A stretch of 35,828 nt of DNA from Bacteroidales bacterium (GTDB taxonomy: Bacteria > Bacteroidota > Bacteroidia > Bacteroidales > UBA932): the NCBI GenBank assembly GCA_017617655.1, contig JAFZVU010000033.1, forward strand, positions 1 through 35,828, given 5' to 3'. The position numbers and the translations under genes are program-made. Of the stretch, positions 20,510 through 28,651 are shown piece after piece (position 1 is the first letter of the stretch; each line of letters opens with the position of its first letter). The notes beneath the pieces were generated by a model. That model was not told where the DNA came from. It saw only the letters and a list, made by a program, of their open reading frames with translations, and made no database searches.

Positions 20510-21115
20510 TTAATCTTTTTTGTGCCTTTTTGCGAGCTCTTCTTCGAGGTCTTCTATACCCATTCCCATCTGCTCGCAGAGCACGAGGAGGTGATACACC
20601 AGGTCGCCGGCTTCGTAGAGGAAACGCTCCTTGTTGCCATCCACAGCCTCGATCACTGTCTCGACGGCCTCCTCTCCCACTTTCTGGGCGATCTTGTTGA
20701 CGCCTTTGGTGAAGAGATGAGTGGTGTATGAGCCTTCCGGCATGTCCTTGTGTCGCTGGCGGATGCAGGCCTGGAGGGTGCCCATGAAGCGTTCGTTCTC
20801 ACGGGTGTCGAAGCATGCGGTGGTGCCGCGGTGGCAGGTCGGTCCGTCGGGAATGGCCCTAACAAGCAGGGTGTCCATGTCGCAGTCGGGATACATCGCA
20901 ACCACGTTCAGGAAATTGCCGCTGGTCTCGCCCTTGGTCCACAGGCACTGGCGGCTGCGGCTGAAGAAGGTCACTTTGCCTTCGGCAACGGTCTTGTCGA
21001 AAGCCTCGCGGTTCATGTAGCCGAGCATGAGCACCTTGAGGGTGTTGTCGTCCTGGACTATGACTGGCAGCAGGCCGTCTGCGCATTTATCGAGTTTAAA
21101 ATCGTCAAAGGTCAT
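20510..21115 (-). CDS. hisIE: Bifunctional phosphoribosyl-AMP cyclohydrolase / phosphoribosyl-ATP pyrophosphatase
   Basis: A 201-residue fusion catalysing steps 2 and 3 of histidine synthesis. The HisI domain (about 1-115) has [29 protein letters not shown] and the metal-binding DCDMDTLL and CH.. residues. The HisE domain (about 118-201) has the pyrophosphatase helices with [11 protein letters not shown] and [10 protein letters not shown]. The fusion is usual in Bacteroidota. Last gene of the his operon; its start overlaps the hisF stop by 4 bases. Confidence 0.96.
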
Positions 21116-21867
21116 ATTCTTACTGGTATATTTAGTTTTTTCAATTCACGTTTGAGGTCCGGGATGCGGATTTCTCCCAGATGGAAGATGCTGGCCGCAA
21201 GAGCGGCGTCTGCACAGCCTTCGCCAAGCACGTCGGCGATGTGCTGTATGCAGCCGGCGCCTCCTGAGGCTATTACGGGGATGCTCAGAAGACGGTTCAG
21301 CTCGCGGTAGGTCTCCAGCGGATAGCCAGCCTTCGTACCGTCGTGGTCCATCGAGGTGAACAGCAGTTCGCCCGCCCCGCGCTCCTGCGCCTCGTGGGCC
21401 CAGCTGAAGAGCTCCTTGTCGGTGGGGTATTTGCCGCCGTGGGTGGTGGCCATCCAGCGGCCGTCCACGTGCCGGGCATCTATCGCAATCACGACGAACT
21501 GGCTTCCGTACTTCGAAGCAATATCGCTTATAAGCTGAGGGTTCTTTATGGCCGCGGTGTTGACGCTGATTTTGTCGGCGCCTGCGTCCAGCAGCCTCGC
21601 AGCGTCATCCACACTGCTTATGCCTCCGCCCACCGTAAAGGGGATGTTGATGGCCAAGGCTATCTTCTCCACCAGGGAGGAGAAGGTCCGGCGGCCTTCG
21701 AAGGTGGCGCTTATGTCGAGGTAGACCAGCTCGTCGGCTCCTTCGTCGCTGTAGCGGCGGCCGAGCTCAACGGCGTCGCCCACGTCCCTCAGCGAGACGA
21801 AGTTGACGCCCTTGACGGTGCGGCCGTCCTTGACGTCGAGACAGGGGATTATGCGTTTAGCGACCAT
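21112..21867 (-). CDS. hisF: Imidazole glycerol phosphate synthase cyclase subunit
   Basis: A 251-residue TIM barrel. It pairs with HisH, using ammonia from glutamine to make imidazole glycerol phosphate and AICAR. The catalytic Asp is in [15 protein letters not shown], and the second in IAIDARHV. The phosphate loops GGG and ASGGAG are present. It overlaps hisA by 19 bases and hisIE by 4. Confidence 0.97.
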
Positions 21868-22574
21868 CGTTCCAAGTCTTTTAATGTTATGCGGCCTTCG
21901 TAGATCGCCTTGCCGACAATCACCTTGCGCAGGCCGGATTCATCCAGCTTCTCTATATCCTCCATGCCGCTGATGCCGCCGCTGACCGTGATATCGATGG
22001 CGTCATAGCACTGCTGGAGGTCTTTGTAGAGTTCGAAGGCAGGGCCCTGCAGCATGCCGTCCTTGCTGATGTCGGTGCAGATCACATTGTCCAGCCCGTC
22101 GCCGGCGAACATGTCGATGAGTTCTTCTATGCCCAGTTCTGTCTCCGCCAGCCAGCCGTTCACCGCCACCTTGCCGTCCCTTATGTCAGCTCCCAGGATC
22201 ACCTTCGGTCCGTAGCCCAGCAGCCATTCGCGGAACAGCTCCGGTTTCAGCGCAGCCACACTGCCGCAGATACCGTAGGTAGCGCCGCTGTCGAACACGC
22301 TCCGCAGCGCATCGAGGCTCTTGATGCCTCCTCCCCACTCTATCTCCATCTCAGTCCTGGAAGCCAGCAGCTCCAGTACCTTCAGGTTCGCTGGCTTGCT
22401 CTGTTTGGCCCCGTCGAGGTCCACCAGATGCAGGCGGGTAATACCGGCATCCTGGAAGGCCAGAGCCATGTCCAGAGGCTTGGCGTCATACACCTTGCTG
22501 CGGCCGTAGTCGCCCTGGCTCAGGCGTACGCAGCGCCCTTCAATTATATCTATTGCCGGAATTATCTGTATCAT
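21849..22574 (-). CDS. hisA: Phosphoribosylformimino-AICAR ribotide isomerase
   Basis: A 241-residue TIM-barrel isomerase homologous to HisF. The catalytic Asp is in [19 protein letters not shown], and the second acid in CTDISKDGM. The phosphate-binding loops WGGGIKS and SGGISG are visible. Its start overlaps the hisH stop by 4 bases. Confidence 0.97.
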
Positions 22575-23158
22575 AGCTCCAGGAAGTTCTTGATTATTGC
22601 AGCCCCAACCTCACCGCTCTTCTCGGGGTGGAACTGGGTGCCGTAGAAATTGCCGCGGGCCAGCGCGCCGCTGAAAGCCACTCCGTGAGTCGTGGTGGCA
22701 ATAGTGTCGCCGCATAGCTGCGGATAGAATGAATGCACGTAATACACAAAGCTGTCTTCCTTGAGGCCCTTGAACAGATCAGTCTTCAGGCCGCTGATGG
22801 AGTTCCAGCCCATGTGGGGAATCTTGAGGCCTTCGGCGGGTTTGAAACGCACCACATCGGTGTCGAATATGCCCATGCAGGCTACGTCGCCCTCCTCGGA
22901 GCGGCGGCACATCAGCTGCAGCCCCACGCAGATTCCCAGCACCGGCTGAGCCAGGGTCGGGATGAACTCCGCCAGGCCGCAATCCTTCAGGGCCGCCATT
23001 GCGCAGGAAGCGTCACCCACCCCGGGCAGCACCACCTTGTCGGCCTTGCGCAGCAGCTCACAGTCGGCAGTAAGCACCGGCTCAACCACCCCTGCCCTGG
23101 TCAGGGCATTGACGACAGAACGGATGTTGCCCACACCGTAATCTACTATCGCTATCAT
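22571..23158 (-). CDS. hisH: Imidazole glycerol phosphate synthase glutamine amidotransferase subunit
   Basis: A 195-residue class I glutamine amidotransferase. The nucleophile Cys is in GICVGLQLM, and the catalytic His-Glu pair in GTQFHPEKSG. It opens IAIVDYGVGNIRSV, typical of HisH. It supplies ammonia to HisF. Overlaps hisB by 4 bases. Confidence 0.97.
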   Translation of the reverse strand: MIAIVDYGVGNIRSVVNALTRAGVVEPVLTADCELLRKADKVVLPGVGDASCAMAALKDCGLAEFIPTLAQPVLGICVGLQLMCRRSEEGDVACMGIFDTDVVRFKPAEGLKIPHMGWNSISGLKTDLFKGLKEDSFVYYVHSFYPQLCGDTIATTTHGVAFSGALARGNFYGTQFHPEKSGEVGAAIIKNFLEL

Positions 23159-24267
23159 AACAGCCCCTTGCTGCTCGGCAGCTCGTAATTGAACGGAATA
23201 TGCGCCACGGCGCTTCTCAGGCAGCGTGCGAAAGCCTTGAAGACCGCTTCTGCCAGATGGTGATTGTTCTCGCCTGTGGCTTTAATGTGCAGGTTGCACT
23301 GCATGGCAGCAGTAAGAGATGAGAAGAAATGCTTGAACATCTCCGTGGGAGTGTCGCCTACATATTCTCTGGTGAACTTGACGTCCCAGGCGAAGTCTAT
23401 GCGACCGCCGAGGTCCATCAGCACTATAGCGTCGCACTCGTCCATGGGGAGAGCGAAGCCGTAGCGGCCAATGCCCGCCTTGTCGCCGAGGGCCTTGCTT
23501 ATGGCAGTGCCGAGAGCTATGGCCACATCTTCCATGGTGTGGTGCTCATCCACCTCCAGGTCTCCTTTCGCAGCGATCTGCAGGCTGACTCCGCCGTGAT
23601 GCGCTATCTGATCCAGCATGTGGTCGAAGAACTTGAGACCAGTGTCGACGCTGCTCTCAAGCCTTCCGTCAAGGTCCACGGTGACGCTTATCTGTGTCTC
23701 TTTGGTGTTGCGCACAACTGTCGCCACGCGGCTGCCGCGCCTCAGGTATTCGGCCACATCGGCCCAGCTGCGGGCGGTGAAGTCAGCTTCAAGGCCGGCG
23801 CCCTTGCCTTCCACATCGAGCAGTATCGACTTGCAGCCCAGGTTCCTGGCCAACTGCAAGTCGGTGGCGCGGTCGCCTATCACATAGCTTTGAGCCAGGT
23901 CATAGTCGCCTGCCAGGTATTTGCCGAACATTCCGATGCCCGGCTTGCGGGTCGGAGCGTTCTCGACCGGAGTGGTAGGATCTATAAGCTCGTCGTCGAA
24001 GCGGATGCCTTCGCTGGCAAGCACCCTCTCCATCAGGCGGTGCGGCCCGATGAAATCGTCGTATGGGAAACTTGCAGTCCCGAGGCCGTCCTGGTTGCTG
24101 ACGAGCACCAGCTCGTAGTCCAGACCAGAGATGCTCTTAAGGGCGCTGATGGCGCCTTCGACGAACTCGAACTTGTCGAAGCTGTCGACCTGCTCGCTCG
24201 GCATCGGTTCTACCAGGATGGTGCCGTCGCGGTCGATGAAAAGGGCTTTCTTCTTATTGTCTGTCAT
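23155..24267 (-). CDS. hisB: Bifunctional histidinol-phosphatase / imidazoleglycerol-phosphate dehydratase
   Basis: A 370-residue fusion. The N-terminal HAD phosphatase (about 1-165) has the nucleophile motif FIDRDGT and VIGDRATD. The C-terminal dehydratase (about 180-370) has FDHMLDQIAHHG, the metal-binding DEHHTMED and a closing HH. The loop that binds zinc through Cys in E. coli HisB has no Cys here (DPTTPVENAPTRKPG); I recall the same in Bacteroides. The fusion means no separate phosphatase is needed. Overlaps hisC by 14 bases. Confidence 0.96.
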   Translation of the reverse strand: MTDNKKKALFIDRDGTILVEPMPSEQVDSFDKFEFVEGAISALKSISGLDYELVLVSNQDGLGTASFPYDDFIGPHRLMERVLASEGIRFDDELIDPTTPVENAPTRKPGIGMFGKYLAGDYDLAQSYVIGDRATDLQLARNLGCKSILLDVEGKGAGLEADFTARSWADVAEYLRRGSRVATVVRNTKETQISVTVDLDGRLESSVDTGLKFFDHMLDQIAHHGGVSLQIAAKGDLEVDEHHTMEDVAIALGTAISKALGDKAGIGRYGFALPMDECDAIVLMDLGGRIDFAWDVKFTREYVGDTPTEMFKHFFSSLTAAMQCNLHIKATGENNHHLAEAVFKAFARCLRSAVAHIPFNYELPSSKGLL

Positions 24268-25294
24268 AATCGCTTATGATTTCTATCAATTTCTTATTCT
24301 CGGCGGGGGTTCCGACGGTGATGCGCAGGCAGCCTTCGCAGCCCTTTGTAGTCGAGCGGTCCCTCACGATAAGCTCGTCAGCGATCAGGCGGTCATAGAG
24401 CTCGCGGGCCCGCGTAACCTTCACCAGCAGGAAGTTGGCGTCGCTGGGATACACCTTCTCCACGCAGCGGAACTTCGGCAGCTCGCGCTCCAGCATGTCG
24501 CGCTGCGCCTTGAGCTCCTCGATCTGGCCGGTAATGTCCTTCTCCAGATTCTTCTCGGCGAAGCCCAGAGTGTCGGTGCCGATATTGTAGGGGTATTTCA
24601 CCTGCTTGAAGATAGACACCACCTTCTCGTCTGCAATGGCGAGGCCCACACGGAGACCGGCCATTCCGTAGGCTTTCGACAAGGTCTGCAGCACAATCAG
24701 GTTGGGATATTTGTCGATATATGTCTTGAGACTGCCTTTGTCAGAGAAATCTACATAAGCCTCGTCAACCACTACCATTCCGTTGAAACGCTCCACCAGC
24801 TGCAGCAGCTGCTCCGGCTCGAATGCGTTCGCAGTGGGGTTGTTGGGCGAGCAGAGAAACATCAGCTTAGAGTGGCTGTCGGCAGCCGCCAGCAGCTCCT
24901 CCACCGGCAGTGAGAAATCCGGCCTTAGAGGCACGCTGCGGAACTCCACGTCATTTATCGCTGCGCAGACGCTGTACATGCCGTAACTGGGTGCAATTGA
25001 GATGGCGTTGTCGATGCGCGGCTCGCAGAACACGCGGTAGCACAGGTCGATGGCCTCGTCGCTGCCGTTGCCCATGAACAGACGCTCGGGCCTGATGCCC
25101 TTCAGCTCAGCTATGCGCGCGCGCACCTTCTCTTTTTGAGACGGCGAGGGGTAACGGTTCAGGCCGTTCTGATACGGGTTCTCGTTGGCATCCAGAAAGA
25201 TGCCCAGAGCGCCCTTGTACTCGTCCCTTGCGGTCGAATACGGTGTCAAACGGGCGATGTTGGCCCTCAGCAGACTCGTTATATCAGTCTTCAT
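24254..25294 (-). CDS. hisC: Histidinol-phosphate aminotransferase
   Basis: A 346-residue PLP aminotransferase of class I/II fold. Motifs: LDANENPY at the substrate entrance, NGSDEAIDL, the NPTA segment (CSPNNPTAN), VVVDEAYVDF, and the Schiff-base lysine in LQTLSKAYGMAGLRVG. A final R is in RITVGT. Its start overlaps the hisD stop by 11 bases. Confidence 0.96.
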   Translation of the reverse strand: MKTDITSLLRANIARLTPYSTARDEYKGALGIFLDANENPYQNGLNRYPSPSQKEKVRARIAELKGIRPERLFMGNGSDEAIDLCYRVFCEPRIDNAISIAPSYGMYSVCAAINDVEFRSVPLRPDFSLPVEELLAAADSHSKLMFLCSPNNPTANAFEPEQLLQLVERFNGMVVVDEAYVDFSDKGSLKTYIDKYPNLIVLQTLSKAYGMAGLRVGLAIADEKVVSIFKQVKYPYNIGTDTLGFAEKNLEKDITGQIEELKAQRDMLERELPKFRCVEKVYPSDANFLLVKVTRARELYDRLIADELIVRDRSTTKGCEGCLRITVGTPAENKKLIEIISDYDRQ

Positions 25295-26591
25295 TCCTTC
25301 TTTCTATTTTGTTGTTGTACAGCCTCACCTTCACGGCATTTCCGTGCGCTGTCAGTCCCTCTGCGTCAGCCATGCTGATTATAACGTTGCTAAGCGACAG
25401 AAGGCCTTTCTTCGAGAGCTCCTGATAGGTGATATAGTGCAGGAAACTGTCGAGACCCACTCCGCTGAACGAAGCTGCCCAGCCCATCGTGGGAAGGGTG
25501 TGGTTCGTGCCTGAAGCATAGTCTCCCGCGCTTTCGGGAGAATACGGGCCGATGAAGATGCTGCCAGCCGCAGTGATGCGGTCGGCCACGCTCCACGGGT
25601 CTTCCATATTGATGATTAGGTGCTCGGATGCATAGCCATTTGCAAACTCTACCATAGTGTCGACATCGTCGAAGACCACTATGCGGCTGTTCTCCAGCGC
25701 CCGCTCGACTATCTCCCTGCGAGGGAGCTCCTCAGTCTGGGCCTCCACCTCCATATAGACCTCGTTGGCCAGAATCTCGTCGTTGCAGACCAGGATAGCC
25801 TGGCTGTCGGGGCCGTGCTCAGCCTGTGAAAGCAGGTCGCAGGCCACGAACGAAGCCCTCGCGTTCTCGTCGGCCATAACCATCACCTCAGACGGACCGG
25901 CCGGCATGTCGATGGCCACTCCGCTTGCGCTTACAGCCTGCTTCGCCTTGGTGACGAAACGGTTGCCCGGGCCGAATATCTTCATGACCTTCGGAACGGT
26001 CTCAGTGCCGTACGCCATAGCGGCGACGGCCTGCGCTCCGCCTATCTTGTATATCTTGCTGACTCCGCACACCTGGGCTGCATAGAGCACCGCCGGGTTA
26101 ACCTGTCCGTCCTTGCCGCAGGGAGTGCAGAGTACTATCTCCTTACAGCCCGCCAGCTTCGCAGGGATGGCCAGCATCAGCAGGGTTGAGAACAGAGGCG
26201 CGCTGCCACCGGGGATGTACAGTCCCACCTTCTCGATAGGGATGGCTCTGCGGCGGCACACCACTCCGGCCATGGTCTCGACCTCGACCGGCACCGGGGT
26301 CTGCGCCTGATGGAACTCGCGGATGTTGCGCGCGGCGGCGTTTATAGCCCTCTGCAACTTGGCGCTGACAAACTCTTCAGAAGCTGCTATCTCTTCTTCA
26401 GTCACCTGCAGCACATCGGGGCAGAACCCCTCCACTTCCGTGGCGATCTGCCTTATCGCAGCGTCTCCGCCCTCTTTTACTTTCCTCAAAATGTCGTTCA
26501 CTATGGCGGCTATGTCGTCGTCATTGCTAGAAACGCGGGCCATCAGTTCGGGCCACTGCTCTTTCGGAGGATTTACGAATATTTCCATCAC
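25284..26591 (-). CDS. hisD: Histidinol dehydrogenase
   Basis: A 435-residue zinc enzyme performing the two NAD-dependent oxidations that end the pathway. The family signature is visible as PAGPSEVMVMADE followed by DLLSQAEHGPDSQAILV (with zinc and catalytic Gln/His). Late residues YASEHLIIN and GDYASGTNHTLPT carry the Glu-His base pair and metal His. It could start at the first or second Met. Overlaps hisG by 4 bases. Confidence 0.97.
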   Translation of the reverse strand: MMEIFVNPPKEQWPELMARVSSNDDDIAAIVNDILRKVKEGGDAAIRQIATEVEGFCPDVLQVTEEEIAASEEFVSAKLQRAINAAARNIREFHQAQTPVPVEVETMAGVVCRRRAIPIEKVGLYIPGGSAPLFSTLLMLAIPAKLAGCKEIVLCTPCGKDGQVNPAVLYAAQVCGVSKIYKIGGAQAVAAMAYGTETVPKVMKIFGPGNRFVTKAKQAVSASGVAIDMPAGPSEVMVMADENARASFVACDLLSQAEHGPDSQAILVCNDEILANEVYMEVEAQTEELPRREIVERALENSRIVVFDDVDTMVEFANGYASEHLIINMEDPWSVADRITAAGSIFIGPYSPESAGDYASGTNHTLPTMGWAASFSGVGLDSFLHYITYQELSKKGLLSLSNVIISMADAEGLTAHGNAVKVRLYNNKIERRNED

Positions 26592-27448
26592 GCAATAACT
26601 TTATCAAGGTGCAATACAAGGATGCCTTCTGCTCCGAGGGCCTTCAGCTTTTCTATCTTGTCCCACATTCCGACCTCTTCTACCACTGAGTGCAGGGAGC
26701 ACCAGCCTTCGGCTGCAAGCGGCATGACGGTGGGGCTGCGCATCGCGGGCAGGATCTTAACCGCCTCTGACACCTTGTCGGTGGGGATGTTCATCAGGAT
26801 ATATTTCTTGCCGCGGCTGTCAATCACAGCGTCGAAGCGGAACAGCATAGACTCCAGCAGCTTGCGCTTTGCAGGGCTCATCTTCTTATTGGCTATGAGC
26901 ACGGCCTGGCTGTCCACCACAGTGTGCACTTCCTTCAGTCCGTTGGAAATCAGAGTGCCGCCTGAAGACACTATATCGAAGATTGCGTCGGCGATGCCTG
27001 CCGCGGGAGAAATCTCCACAGAACCCAGGATCACACGGATCTCGGCGTCGATATCGTTCTCGTCAAGCCATTTGCGCAGCACTTTCGGGTATGAGGTTGC
27101 GATCTTCTTGCCGTTGAAGAACGCCGGGCCGGTATACTCCTGCTCCTTGGGTATCGCGAGTGAGATGCGGCAGTCGCCGAAATCCATCTTGCGGACCACC
27201 TCCACGTCGGCCTCCGACTCCAGAACCTCATTCAGACCCACTATGCCGATGTCGGCCGAGCCGTCGGCAACTACGCCGGGGATGTCGTCGTCGCGGAGGT
27301 AGAGCACCTCCATGGGGAAGTTCGCGGCCTTCGCCAGGAACTTGCGTTTAAGCTCGTCGATCCTTATTCCCGAATCTTTCAAAAATGCCAGGCTGTCTTC
27401 ACTGAGGCGTCCCTTGGCCTGGATTGCTATTCGCATCAAATTGCTCAT
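26588..27448 (-). CDS. hisG: ATP phosphoribosyltransferase, long form
   Basis: A 286-residue long-form HisG. The catalytic periplasmic-binding-like domain runs from IAIQAKGRLSEDS to about 210 and carries the phosphoribosyl loop in DIVSSGGTLISNGL. The C-terminal ACT-like regulatory domain (about 215-286) is present, so feedback inhibition by histidine without HisZ is expected. It is the first structural gene after the attenuator, which ends about 25 bases before the ATG. Confidence 0.97.
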   Translation of the reverse strand: MSNLMRIAIQAKGRLSEDSLAFLKDSGIRIDELKRKFLAKAANFPMEVLYLRDDDIPGVVADGSADIGIVGLNEVLESEADVEVVRKMDFGDCRISLAIPKEQEYTGPAFFNGKKIATSYPKVLRKWLDENDIDAEIRVILGSVEISPAAGIADAIFDIVSSGGTLISNGLKEVHTVVDSQAVLIANKKMSPAKRKLLESMLFRFDAVIDSRGKKYILMNIPTDKVSEAVKILPAMRSPTVMPLAAEGWCSLHSVVEEVGMWDKIEKLKALGAEGILVLHLDKVIA

Positions 27449-27469: not shown

Positions 27470-27507
27470 AACAAAAAAGCTTACTCCGTGTAAGAGTAAG
27501 CTTTTGC
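27470..27507 (-). terminator. Attenuator terminator of the his operon
   Basis: Read on the minus strand: AAAAGCTTACTC (27505-27494), loop TTACACG, GAGTAAGCTTTT (27486-27475), then further Ts (TTTTTTGTTT). This is a perfect 12-bp stem with a U-tract, 22 bases before hisG. The 5' arm also forms the 3' half of the antiterminator. Confidence 0.92.
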
Positions 27508-27540
27508 GTATTTGTAGCAGAACTATATGCAAACACCTAC
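27496..27540 (-). promoter_or_regulatory. Antiterminator of the his attenuator
   Basis: On the minus strand GTAGGTGTTTGC (27540-27529) can pair with GCAAAAGCTTAC (27507-27496): twelve positions with two G-U pairs and one G-A mismatch. This pairing uses the terminator's 5' arm, so the two structures exclude each other. The same upstream segment can also pair with the His-codon region (27575-27566, CATATGCACC, with GGTG...GCATAT), which would free the terminator when translation does not stall. Confidence 0.78.
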
Positions 27541-27545
27541 CCTTA

Positions 27546-27590
27546 TCAGTCGATATGGTGATGGTGGTGCATATGGAATCTGTTGGTCAT
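27546..27590 (-). CDS. hisL: his operon leader peptide
   Basis: A 14-codon open frame, MTNRFHMHHHHHID then TGA. Six of 14 codons are His, five in a row, using both CAC and CAT. It lies about 15 bases after the predicted transcription start and 38 bases before the terminator stem. Like E. coli hisL, it is expected to stall a ribosome when charged His-tRNA is scarce. The peptide itself probably has no function. Confidence 0.92.
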   Translation of the reverse strand: MTNRFHMHHHHHID

Positions 27591-27610
27591 TCTTTTACCG
27601 TTTGCATCTG

Positions 27611-27641
27611 CAAAGGACGATAATATTTTTGAATTTACAAA
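27611..27641 (-). promoter_or_regulatory. Predicted promoter of the his operon
   Basis: On the minus strand: TTTG at 27641-27638, a 19-base spacer, then GTCCTTTG at 27618-27611. The TTTG parts and spacing match the Bacteroidota consensus; the TA of TAnnTTTG is missing. The expected start is near 27607, just before hisL. It lies directly after the hydrolase stop codon. Confidence 0.55.
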
Positions 27642-27643
27642 AC

Positions 27644-28651
27644 CTATTCGTCGAAGAATGCCATTACATCGGCCCAGATCTGCTCTTTGTTGATCTCCAG
27701 GAGCAGCTCGTGCTTCAGGCCGGGGTAAAGAATGCGGTCTACATTCTTGTAGCCCTGCGACTGCACGAACTCGATCAGCTTGGCCCAGCGCTCGGGATTT
27801 CCGATAGCCGGATCATTCTCGCCGGCGATGAAGAGGATGGGCAGGTCAGGATTCTCGATGCCCCAGTTGTCCTTGGCGATCTCCCTTGACATCATGCTCA
27901 GATTGTACTGACCGTTGTTGGTGAAAGGATAGCCGCAGAGCGGGTCGGCGTTATATGCCCGCACATTGTCCTCGTTGACAGACAGCCAGTTGTTCTTCAG
28001 ACCGCCGTTGTCGAAAGCCTCGAAGGTCTTGGTGCTGTGGACCTTGTGGGGAGCCCAGAAGTTCCTCCACTTGATGGCGAAGCTCACCTTTGCTACGGCA
28101 TTTCCGCCCGGAGCGCCGCAGAGCACAGCCTTGTCGATAGAGTTGTCGTAGTCCTGCAGATACATGCGGCCTACCATAGTGCCCATGCTGTGGCCGAACA
28201 GATAGACCGGAAGACCCGGATACTGGTCCTTCATGTAAAGCACCATCTGCTGCAGGTCGTCGCTGATAGCGCGCACCTTGTTGGTGCCGAAATCGCCCAG
28301 GCCGGCCTTCTTGGTAATGCTGCCGCCGTGGCCGCGATGGTCGTGCATCTCGCAAACATAGCCGTTCTTGGCCAGATACTGCATGAACGGATAGTAACGC
28401 TCCTTGTGCTCCGCCATACCGTGCGAGAACACCACGACAGCCTTCGGAGTCCCCACCGGCCTGATGATAGCCTGCGCCAGCGGATGCCCGTCAACATTCG
28501 ACTTCAGCGTCTGAGTCTCGATCGGCAGATCCGGAATCGCCGCCGCCTGCGCAAACTCCAGCTCCGCCTGCTCCACACTCACCCGATTTGCCGCATTCAC
28601 ACCGAAGAGGCAGAGTGAGGTGAGGAATAAAATAGAAAGTATCTTTTTCAT
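27644..28651 (-). CDS. Secreted alpha/beta hydrolase, monoacylglycerol lipase/lysophospholipase type
   Basis: A 335-residue exported serine hydrolase. The signal peptide ends at about residue 21 (GVNAA). The Hydrolase_4 (serine aminopeptidase, S33-like) fold shows oxyanion SHGMAEH at 76-82, HDHRGHG at 103-109, nucleophile elbow GHSMG with Ser155, the acid in IAGENDPAIG and a catalytic His in GLKHEL near the end. The family splits monoacylglycerols or lysophospholipids; the cargo here is not shown. It lies upstream of the his promoter on the same strand with no terminator between them. Confidence 0.9.
   Translation of the reverse strand: MKKILSILFLTSLCLFGVNAANRVSVEQAELEFAQAAAIPDLPIETQTLKSNVDGHPLAQAIIRPVGTPKAVVVFSHGMAEHKERYYPFMQYLAKNGYVCEMHDHRGHGGSITKKAGLGDFGTNKVRAISDDLQQMVLYMKDQYPGLPVYLFGHSMGTMVGRMYLQDYDNSIDKAVLCGAPGGNAVAKVSFAIKWRNFWAPHKVHSTKTFEAFDNGGLKNNWLSVNEDNVRAYNADPLCGYPFTNNGQYNLSMMSREIAKDNWGIENPDLPILFIAGENDPAIGNPERWAKLIEFVQSQGYKNVDRILYPGLKHELLLEINKEQIWADVMAFFDE

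Follow-up and report, generated by a model that had tools for sequence, protein, structure and literature searches.

A short open reading frame rich in histidine codons, followed by a hairpin and a run of T residues, lies ahead of hisG on the minus strand of a 35,828-nt stretch of DNA from a Bacteroidales bacterium (UBA932; contig JAFZVU010000033.1; the whole stretch is hereafter called the window), which raises the question of whether this region senses histidine supply for the his operon and, if so, by what route. Sequence, conservation, covariation and in silico folding, in combination, make it highly probable that the region controls the his operon through ribosome-mediated attenuation of transcription. 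The mechanism as such is textbook; what is new is its breadth among the sampled loci and its absence from Rfam.

An initial annotation, made from the sequence, had already proposed the main parts of such a device, and these can be located in the window (Table 1). The leader ORF with its six His codons is present where it had been placed and encodes M T N R F H M H H H H H I D, with five consecutive His codons and one more; its stop codon TGA (27548-27546) is directly followed by a second in-frame stop, TAA (27545-27543), which is overlapped by the 5' arm of the antiterminator. The perfect terminator stem with its U-tract is likewise found, comprising 12 pairs, a 7-nt loop (27493-27487) and T6 at 27478-27473, at a distance of ~25 nt from the hisG ATG (27448); folded alone, it reaches -17.4 kcal/mol vs. 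-4.6 +/- 2.0 for shuffled sequences (z -6.26, with 0 of 200 shuffles as good). As for the antiterminator, the helix and its use of the terminator 5' arm were correctly recognized, whereas its length had been given as 12 positions and is better described as 16 paired positions out of 17; RNAduplex recovers this helix with a shorter inner end. The pairing of a His-codon segment with the 5' half of the antiterminator (the pre-emptor) was also rightly predicted: the minimum-energy fold of the leader RNA contains it, together with inner pairs. Another pairing seen by eye, between 27607-27600 and 27534-27527, is not shared by L002 and L003, the two closest relatives, and was set aside as probably fortuitous.

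Table 1. Features of the his leader region and operon in the window (positions of the window; all on the minus strand).
Feature	Position	Strand	Basis and remarks
Promoter element of the -33 type, TTTG	27638..27641	-	sequence and consensus (PMC7366714); 19 nt upstream of the -7-like box; use inferred
-7-like box GTCCTTTG	27611..27618	-	sequence; two mismatches to TAnnTTTG
Leader ORF MTNRFHMHHHHHID	27546..27590	-	sequence; ATG at 27590, 14 codons
Regulatory His codons His6, His8-His12	27555..27575	-	sequence, folding
Pre-emptor (when untranslated)	27574-27568 with 27531-27525	-	folding
Antiterminator 5' arm	27529..27545	-	16/17 pair with 27507-27491 (G-U allowed); covariation in 70 leaders
Antiterminator 3' arm	27491..27507	-	includes terminator 5' arm 27505-27494
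Intrinsic terminator	27473..27505	-	12-bp stem 27505-27494 / 27486-27475; covariation in 70 leaders
hisG (long form, ATP phosphoribosyltransferase), first controlled gene	26588..27448	-	TIGR00070 186.1 bits, TIGR03455 98.4 bits
Remaining his operon	20510..26591	-	ORFs; successive ORFs overlap
hisD	26591-25284	-	NCBIfam model over cut-off
hisC	25294-24254	-	NCBIfam model over cut-off
hisNB	24267-23155	-	NCBIfam model over cut-off
hisH	23158-22571	-	NCBIfam model over cut-off
hisA	22574-21849	-	NCBIfam model over cut-off
hisF	21867-21112	-	NCBIfam model over cut-off
hisIE	21115-20510	-	NCBIfam model over cut-off

The genes behind the attenuator form a complete his operon of eight members, hisG-D-C-NB-H-A-F-IE, each with a matching NCBIfam model above cut-off (both TIGR models in the case of hisG, which also matches PF01634) and arranged in the same order as in E. 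coli. On the upstream side, the window's own -7 box is imperfect; among the 141 leaders with at least four His codons, 105 have a perfect TAnnTTTG, the Bacteroidota -7 box in the available text of the consensus source (PMC7366714), at most 60 nt upstream of their start, vs. 3.3% of shuffles. Placing the last G of the box at -5, following the promoter numbering in the available text of PMC9723704, transcription in the window would therefore start near 27606. No Shine-Dalgarno sequence precedes the window leader, exactly as the initial annotation had remarked, and this is the rule elsewhere, an SD-like 4-mer being present just 5' of the leader start in 2 of those 141 leaders.

The same annotation had described this class of attenuator as predicted in "a few Bacteroidota", which turned out to be too narrow: the element precedes hisG in most of the sampled loci, the sample consisting of the loci with HisG nearest to that of the window and hence favouring resembling HisG, with distant HisG (family f18 and others) left out. 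The loci were drawn from the window's own family (a match in 37 of 99 genomes, two short fragments among them; 30 loci including the window), from a named collection (best 80 of 589 hisG loci) and from a phylum sample (252 of 296 genomes with a match, used among the matches listed), the phylum-sample loci being 29 besides the window, plus 60 regions, plus 40 more added later. Five loci were removed: L064 and L065 because they lie on the contigs of L015 and L017, L034 and L105 for want of upstream sequence and, once the first scan was done, L080, whose leader is identical to that of L076. Thresholds of the leader and terminator scans were set by us; a His-rich ORF was defined as one of 5-45 aa, with His counted per 8 codons.

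With these definitions, a His-rich ORF with at least three, four or five His precedes hisG in 166, 142 and 100 of the first 195 loci, compared with 4.6%, 0.44% and 0.026% of 3900 dinucleotide shuffles. For all 234 loci the corresponding counts are 202, 177 and 126, compared with 70, 4 and 0 among 1854 real 415-nt control windows taken elsewhere in the longer loci. The conservation in related genomes on which the initial annotation had staked its proposal is thus evident, and in the window's own family the leader (at least three His per 8 codons) is found in 26 of 30 hisG loci, window included. Leader sequences differ between groups (MKNIVAHHHHHHPDE... in a Bacteroides, L101; MISIQLHHHHLHYCSQAMC in family f6, L173), and it is therefore the His codons, not the DNA, that are conserved.

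These counts bear on a simpler reading, in which the hairpin is a constitutive terminator of the upstream gene and the His-rich ORF a chance occurrence, with no histidine sensing. The element indeed sits between two same-strand genes, where a strong terminator could suffice by itself to shield the his operon, and the near relative L003 retains the end of the same upstream gene (by eye). However, chance would have to account for a leader with at least four His in 177 of 234 hisG upstream windows vs. 4 of 1854 controls, the sequence 5' of the leader differs in other relatives (e.g., L002 and L011, by eye), and a plain terminator would not be expected to show the antiterminator covariation described below. 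Leader conservation and this covariation led us to reject a plain terminator, which we regard as extremely improbable. The upstream gene itself (27644-28651, minus strand, 335 aa) resembles a secreted alpha/beta hydrolase by eye, is without an NCBIfam match at 1e-10 and has its stop codon 53 nt ahead of the leader ATG.

The leader is absent (fewer than three His) in 32 of the 234 hisG loci, comprising 17 of 75 named loci (from the best 80 of 589), 4 of 30 in the window's own family (L009, L023, L024 and L028), 3/3 in f15, 3/3 in f19, 1/4 in f22, 1/2 in f30 and single loci of f26, f36 and f48. Within the own family, L024 and L028-L030 keep the terminator and have a degenerate leader (L029 and L030 with three His, L024 and L028 with fewer), and look as if the sensor were decaying. 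Five contigs labelled Akkermansia (L054, L058, L062, L079 and L108), with HisG 55-59% identical to the query, have no His leader (0/5) and may represent either mislabelled bins or gene transfer.

A terminator is present 3' of the His codons in 137 of the 165 leaders with at least three His, the rate in shuffled sequence being 0-5% per family; by family, it follows the leader in 29/29 cases in f6, 13/13 in f17, 8/8 in f4 and 5/5 each in f5, f7 and f35. This distribution also bears on mainly translational control, in which the upstream ORF or the hairpin would govern ribosome access to hisG with little premature termination, a reading to which the short distance of ~25 nt between the hairpin end and the hisG start codon lends some support in the window. 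Against it stand the 12-bp stem with its T6 tract and z of -6.26, the 137 of 165 leaders with T-tract hairpins 3' of the His codons, and the distance of some of these hairpins from hisG: in L030, L045 and L104 they end 120, 177 and 123 nt ahead of the hisG match, respectively. Purely translational control was rejected on account of these T-tract hairpins, some of them distant from hisG, and we consider it very unlikely as the main mode of regulation.

Transcription attenuation additionally calls for an alternative helix, and the relatives provide evidence for it at two levels. In the 137 leaders with a terminator (this and the arm-geometry and folding statistics below refer to the first 195 loci, without the 40 later ones), the best duplex between the stretch behind the His codons and the terminator 5' arm has a median z of -2.68, with 78% below -2. 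Arms taken from foreign families, a harder control because the arms share a GGYAGG/CTTRCC core, equal or outdo the native arm in an average of 12% of trials, and only 35% of the 137 loci beat 95% of them.

The second level is alignment A2, which comprises 70 Bacteroidales leaders; seven of the 77 leader-plus-terminator loci (L025, L026, L027, L029, L030, L069 and L096) were excluded as having no CTTRC-type core in the terminator arm, an exclusion that favours a uniform terminator and makes no selection on the antiterminator arm. By covariation measures that are open to inflation by relatedness of the sequences, antiterminator columns have 89.0% of cells paired (80.3% in shuffled alignments; 27-48% with partners slid by 1-3 columns), a covariation score of 0.395 (shuffled, 0.249) and 63 cells changed on both sides (shuffled, 28.5), these three of five measures lying above all 500 shuffles. 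The other two are without excess (both-side-changed pairs, 3 vs. 3.5; further pair types, 20 vs. 19.9). Terminator columns behave similarly by the same measures, with 93.2% of cells paired vs. 83.8%, a covariation score of 0.453 vs. 0.264 and 111 vs. 33.4 cells changed on both sides. The alignment across Bacteroidales that the initial annotation had suggested thus reveals compensatory changes in both helices. They are linked by column 155, where a triplet spanning the antiterminator arm, the shared arm and the terminator arm reads U-A-U in some species (L001) and C-G-C in others (L014). Overall, good conservation in A2 is confined to the His codons and to the arms of the two mutually exclusive helices; RNAalifold yields the terminator alone, as expected of the stabler exclusive helix.

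A side observation concerns the f6 leaders (e.g., L173), which have a recurrent peptide end, CSQAMC, whose codons carry the antiterminator arm CUCAAGCG pairing with the terminator arm CGUUUGAG; the recurrence of this peptide end may be explained by the RNA pairing.

The response of these helices to the ribosome was simulated by folding the nascent window RNA from 27604 to 27491, i.e., ending at the shared arm, with a 29-nt ribosome footprint blocked. Folding with and without masked His codons, likewise suggested in the initial annotation, gives an antiterminator probability of 1.00 whichever of the six His codons occupies the ribosomal A site, of 0.04 without a ribosome, in which case the pre-emptor prevails (0.93), and of 0.00 with the ribosome at the stop codon. 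When the RNA is extended to 27473, the terminator reaches 1.00 at equilibrium in all ribosome states. Because it wins at equilibrium in every state, the antitermination decision must, on this model, be kinetic, with the antiterminator made first, which is beyond proof by folding.

A similar model of the 137 leaders (28-nt footprint, spacer-shuffled control) shows the shared terminator arm sequestered at 0.85 with a His stall, 0.39 with the ribosome at the stop codon and 0.50 without a ribosome, the respective control values being 0.54, 0.48 and 0.51. The His-minus-stop difference exceeds 0.3 in 105 of the 137 leaders (control, 12%), and no leader shows the reverse (control, 1%). This is in line with the geometry of the leaders, where the antiterminator arm begins, in the median, 12 nt after the final His codon and 9 nt ahead of the stop codon's end. 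In the relatives, the pre-emptor helix is weak (mean z -0.99 +/- 0.11 s.e.; own-family median -0.43). The stall-sensing logic claimed at the outset is upheld in silico by the conservation of His codons, terminator and alternative helix, by compensatory changes and by simulated occlusion.

In the attenuation mechanism that we propose, RNA polymerase would start ~15 nt before the leader ATG, followed by a ribosome. Under scarcity of charged His-tRNA, the ribosome would stall on one of the six His codons and cover them, leaving 27545-27529 free to pair with 27507-27491 once the latter is transcribed; the antiterminator would thereby take the 5' arm of the terminator, and the polymerase would continue into hisG and the seven genes behind it. 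With plentiful His-tRNA, the ribosome would reach the stop codon and cover the antiterminator 5' arm, whereupon the terminator (27505-27475) would form and transcription would end at the T-tract. If the leader is not translated, the His-codon segment would pair with the antiterminator 5' half, and the terminator would form as well. The site of transcription initiation, a ribosome coupled to the polymerase and a response to histidine are all inferred.

The attenuator would act in the manner of E. coli hisL, yet it is not a member of the corresponding Rfam family, RF00514. The E. coli element likewise combines a His-codon leader peptide (MTRVQFKHHHHHHHPD, from L247) with hisG downstream, and its antiterminator and terminator are mutually exclusive; unlike hisL, the window element is without a Shine-Dalgarno sequence, has a putative Bacteroidota-type promoter and carries a GCTTRC terminator core in place of a GC-rich stem. 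A search with Rfam 15 revealed no family at gathering score in the window or in 37 other distinct hisG leader loci of the phylum. This includes RF00514 His_leader, whose threshold of 49 bits none of these loci reached while the E. coli hisL control scored 131.6 bits, and RF01692 Bacteroid-trp, a Trp leader with a terminator that is a cis-regulatory RNA of Bacteroidetes and likewise had no gathering-level match in any of the loci searched. RF00506 Thr_leader scored 35.6 bits at 27582-27470, below its threshold of 55 bits, and this resemblance was rejected as sub-threshold and in view of the his operon behind it, the score being probably due to CACC-type repeats plus the terminator. Since Rfam 15 is blind to the element, Rfam-based RNA annotation will miss such leaders.

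The Rfam results are equally relevant to a tRNA- or metabolite-binding riboswitch (a T-box or a His aptamer) acting through the same terminator. Such control has a precedent in Firmicutes, whose his genes are under T-boxes according to the available text of PMC9413887. Here, however, no Rfam family is detected at gathering score in the window or the 37 other loci, and the conserved A2 columns are the His codons and two exclusive helices, as fits an attenuator, and on these grounds the riboswitch was rejected; we give it next to no credence. Ribosome-mediated attenuation is the reading that we retain.

Attenuators in Bacteroidetes/Chlorobi were reportedly predicted by Vitreschak et al. in 2004 (FEMS Microbiol Lett 234:357), and Lopatovskaya et al. 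are said to have made comparative attenuator predictions in 2010 (Mol Biol 44:128), so that a His attenuator in Bacteroidota may already be in print. Among the matches listed in the open-licence literature, we found no description of a His attenuator across Bacteroidota. Related observations appear in the available text of PMC9723704, where leader-peptide attenuation upstream of amino-acid operons is said to be strongly indicated in Flavobacterium psychrophilum and a structured 5' element without an Rfam match is described as conserved ahead of hisG in Flavobacteriaceae. Our f6 leaders may be the same element, for which the available text of that paper (PMC9723704) describes neither a His leader nor an antiterminator or covariation. 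PMC7366714 mentions short ORFs of an attenuation-like kind in Bacteroides, with histidine absent from its main text; Bacteroid-trp RNA is listed as a Bacteroidetes cis-regulatory RNA in the available text of Weinberg 2010 (PMC2864571); and PMC8305728 covers the his genes of the superphylum, the sole mention of attenuation in its available text referring to enterobacteria. In another phylum, Firmicutes, the available texts describe His-codon leaders before his genes (PMC2965389, PMC9413887), in PMC9413887 together with a terminator and an alternative antiterminator and, for that phylum, without a match to RF00514, the same combination as in the window.

Families differ in what follows the leader. 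A terminator after the leader is found in 0/23 loci of f24, 0/7 of f3 and 3/7 of f10. In f24, which belongs to another class of the phylum (L193-L195 and L201-L220), a His-rich leader is nevertheless present in 23/23 loci. The f24 spacers before hisG are rich in C and poor in G (0.259 and 0.060), compared with 0.176 and 0.141 over the 100 nt preceding the leader and 0.167 and 0.138 in 74 control regions upstream of long ORFs (from ten stretches of f24 genomes, with region starts set mechanically); their mean C minus G of 0.194 is reached by 0/74 controls, and 2.7% of controls are as G-poor. A strict -7 box is found in 14 of the 23 loci, with the first in-frame start codon, mostly GTG, 4 nt (ten loci) or 5 nt (four loci) behind it; by the promoter numbering used above, the leader of these loci would begin at +1 or +2. 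RNAalifold detected no common structure in the 23 f24 leaders. Masking of the hisG start, considered as another output, was rejected, being flat in f24 (0.65, 0.64 and 0.63 without a ribosome, with a His stall and at the stop codon) and unchanged by ribosome state in f3 (0.65 each) and f10 (0.55, 0.54 and 0.55).

Rho-dependent output would be the simplest reading of the f24 spacer sequences, and their poverty in G may have other reasons. We tentatively entertain the possibility that the His leader is an old, widespread sensor with an exchanged output, appearing in f24 as a leaderless His uORF with Rho-dependent termination, a combination that we did not find among the literature matches listed. 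The loci without a terminator 3' of their His-rich leaders also include L170 and L181-L186 (f3) and L114 and L118-L120 (part of f10); L114, L118 and L120 have in common the peptide end HHFHHSS and a CCGGTGAYG stretch past the stop, and L119 has the peptide end only. Since families appear to differ in output module, it becomes possible to test how a sensor evolves separately from its effector.

Ribosome-mediated attenuation requires a ribosome close behind RNA polymerase, and Bacteroidota initiate translation without Shine-Dalgarno sequences; to our knowledge, little is known about how tightly transcription and translation are coupled in this phylum. The presence of the conserved attenuator before hisG in most sampled loci, together with this need for a close ribosome, therefore implies sufficiently tight coupling in such leaders over much of the phylum, and the attenuator offers a ready reporter for measuring it.

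Other amino-acid genes of the same genome were inspected as well. No trpE was found in the assembly (84% complete), and thrA (L245) lies closely behind another gene with no candidate leader directly upstream (by eye). Ahead of ilvD (L244, PF00920), at L244:605-682 (corresponding to contig G000:C40, 24304-24381), lies the leader MQTAIINSIRLVLTLDLLVLVVSAL, in which Ile, Leu and Val abound; it is followed by a 7-bp hairpin and T7 (by eye). This is a candidate branched-chain amino-acid attenuator, and attenuation therefore seems to be used more than once in this genome.
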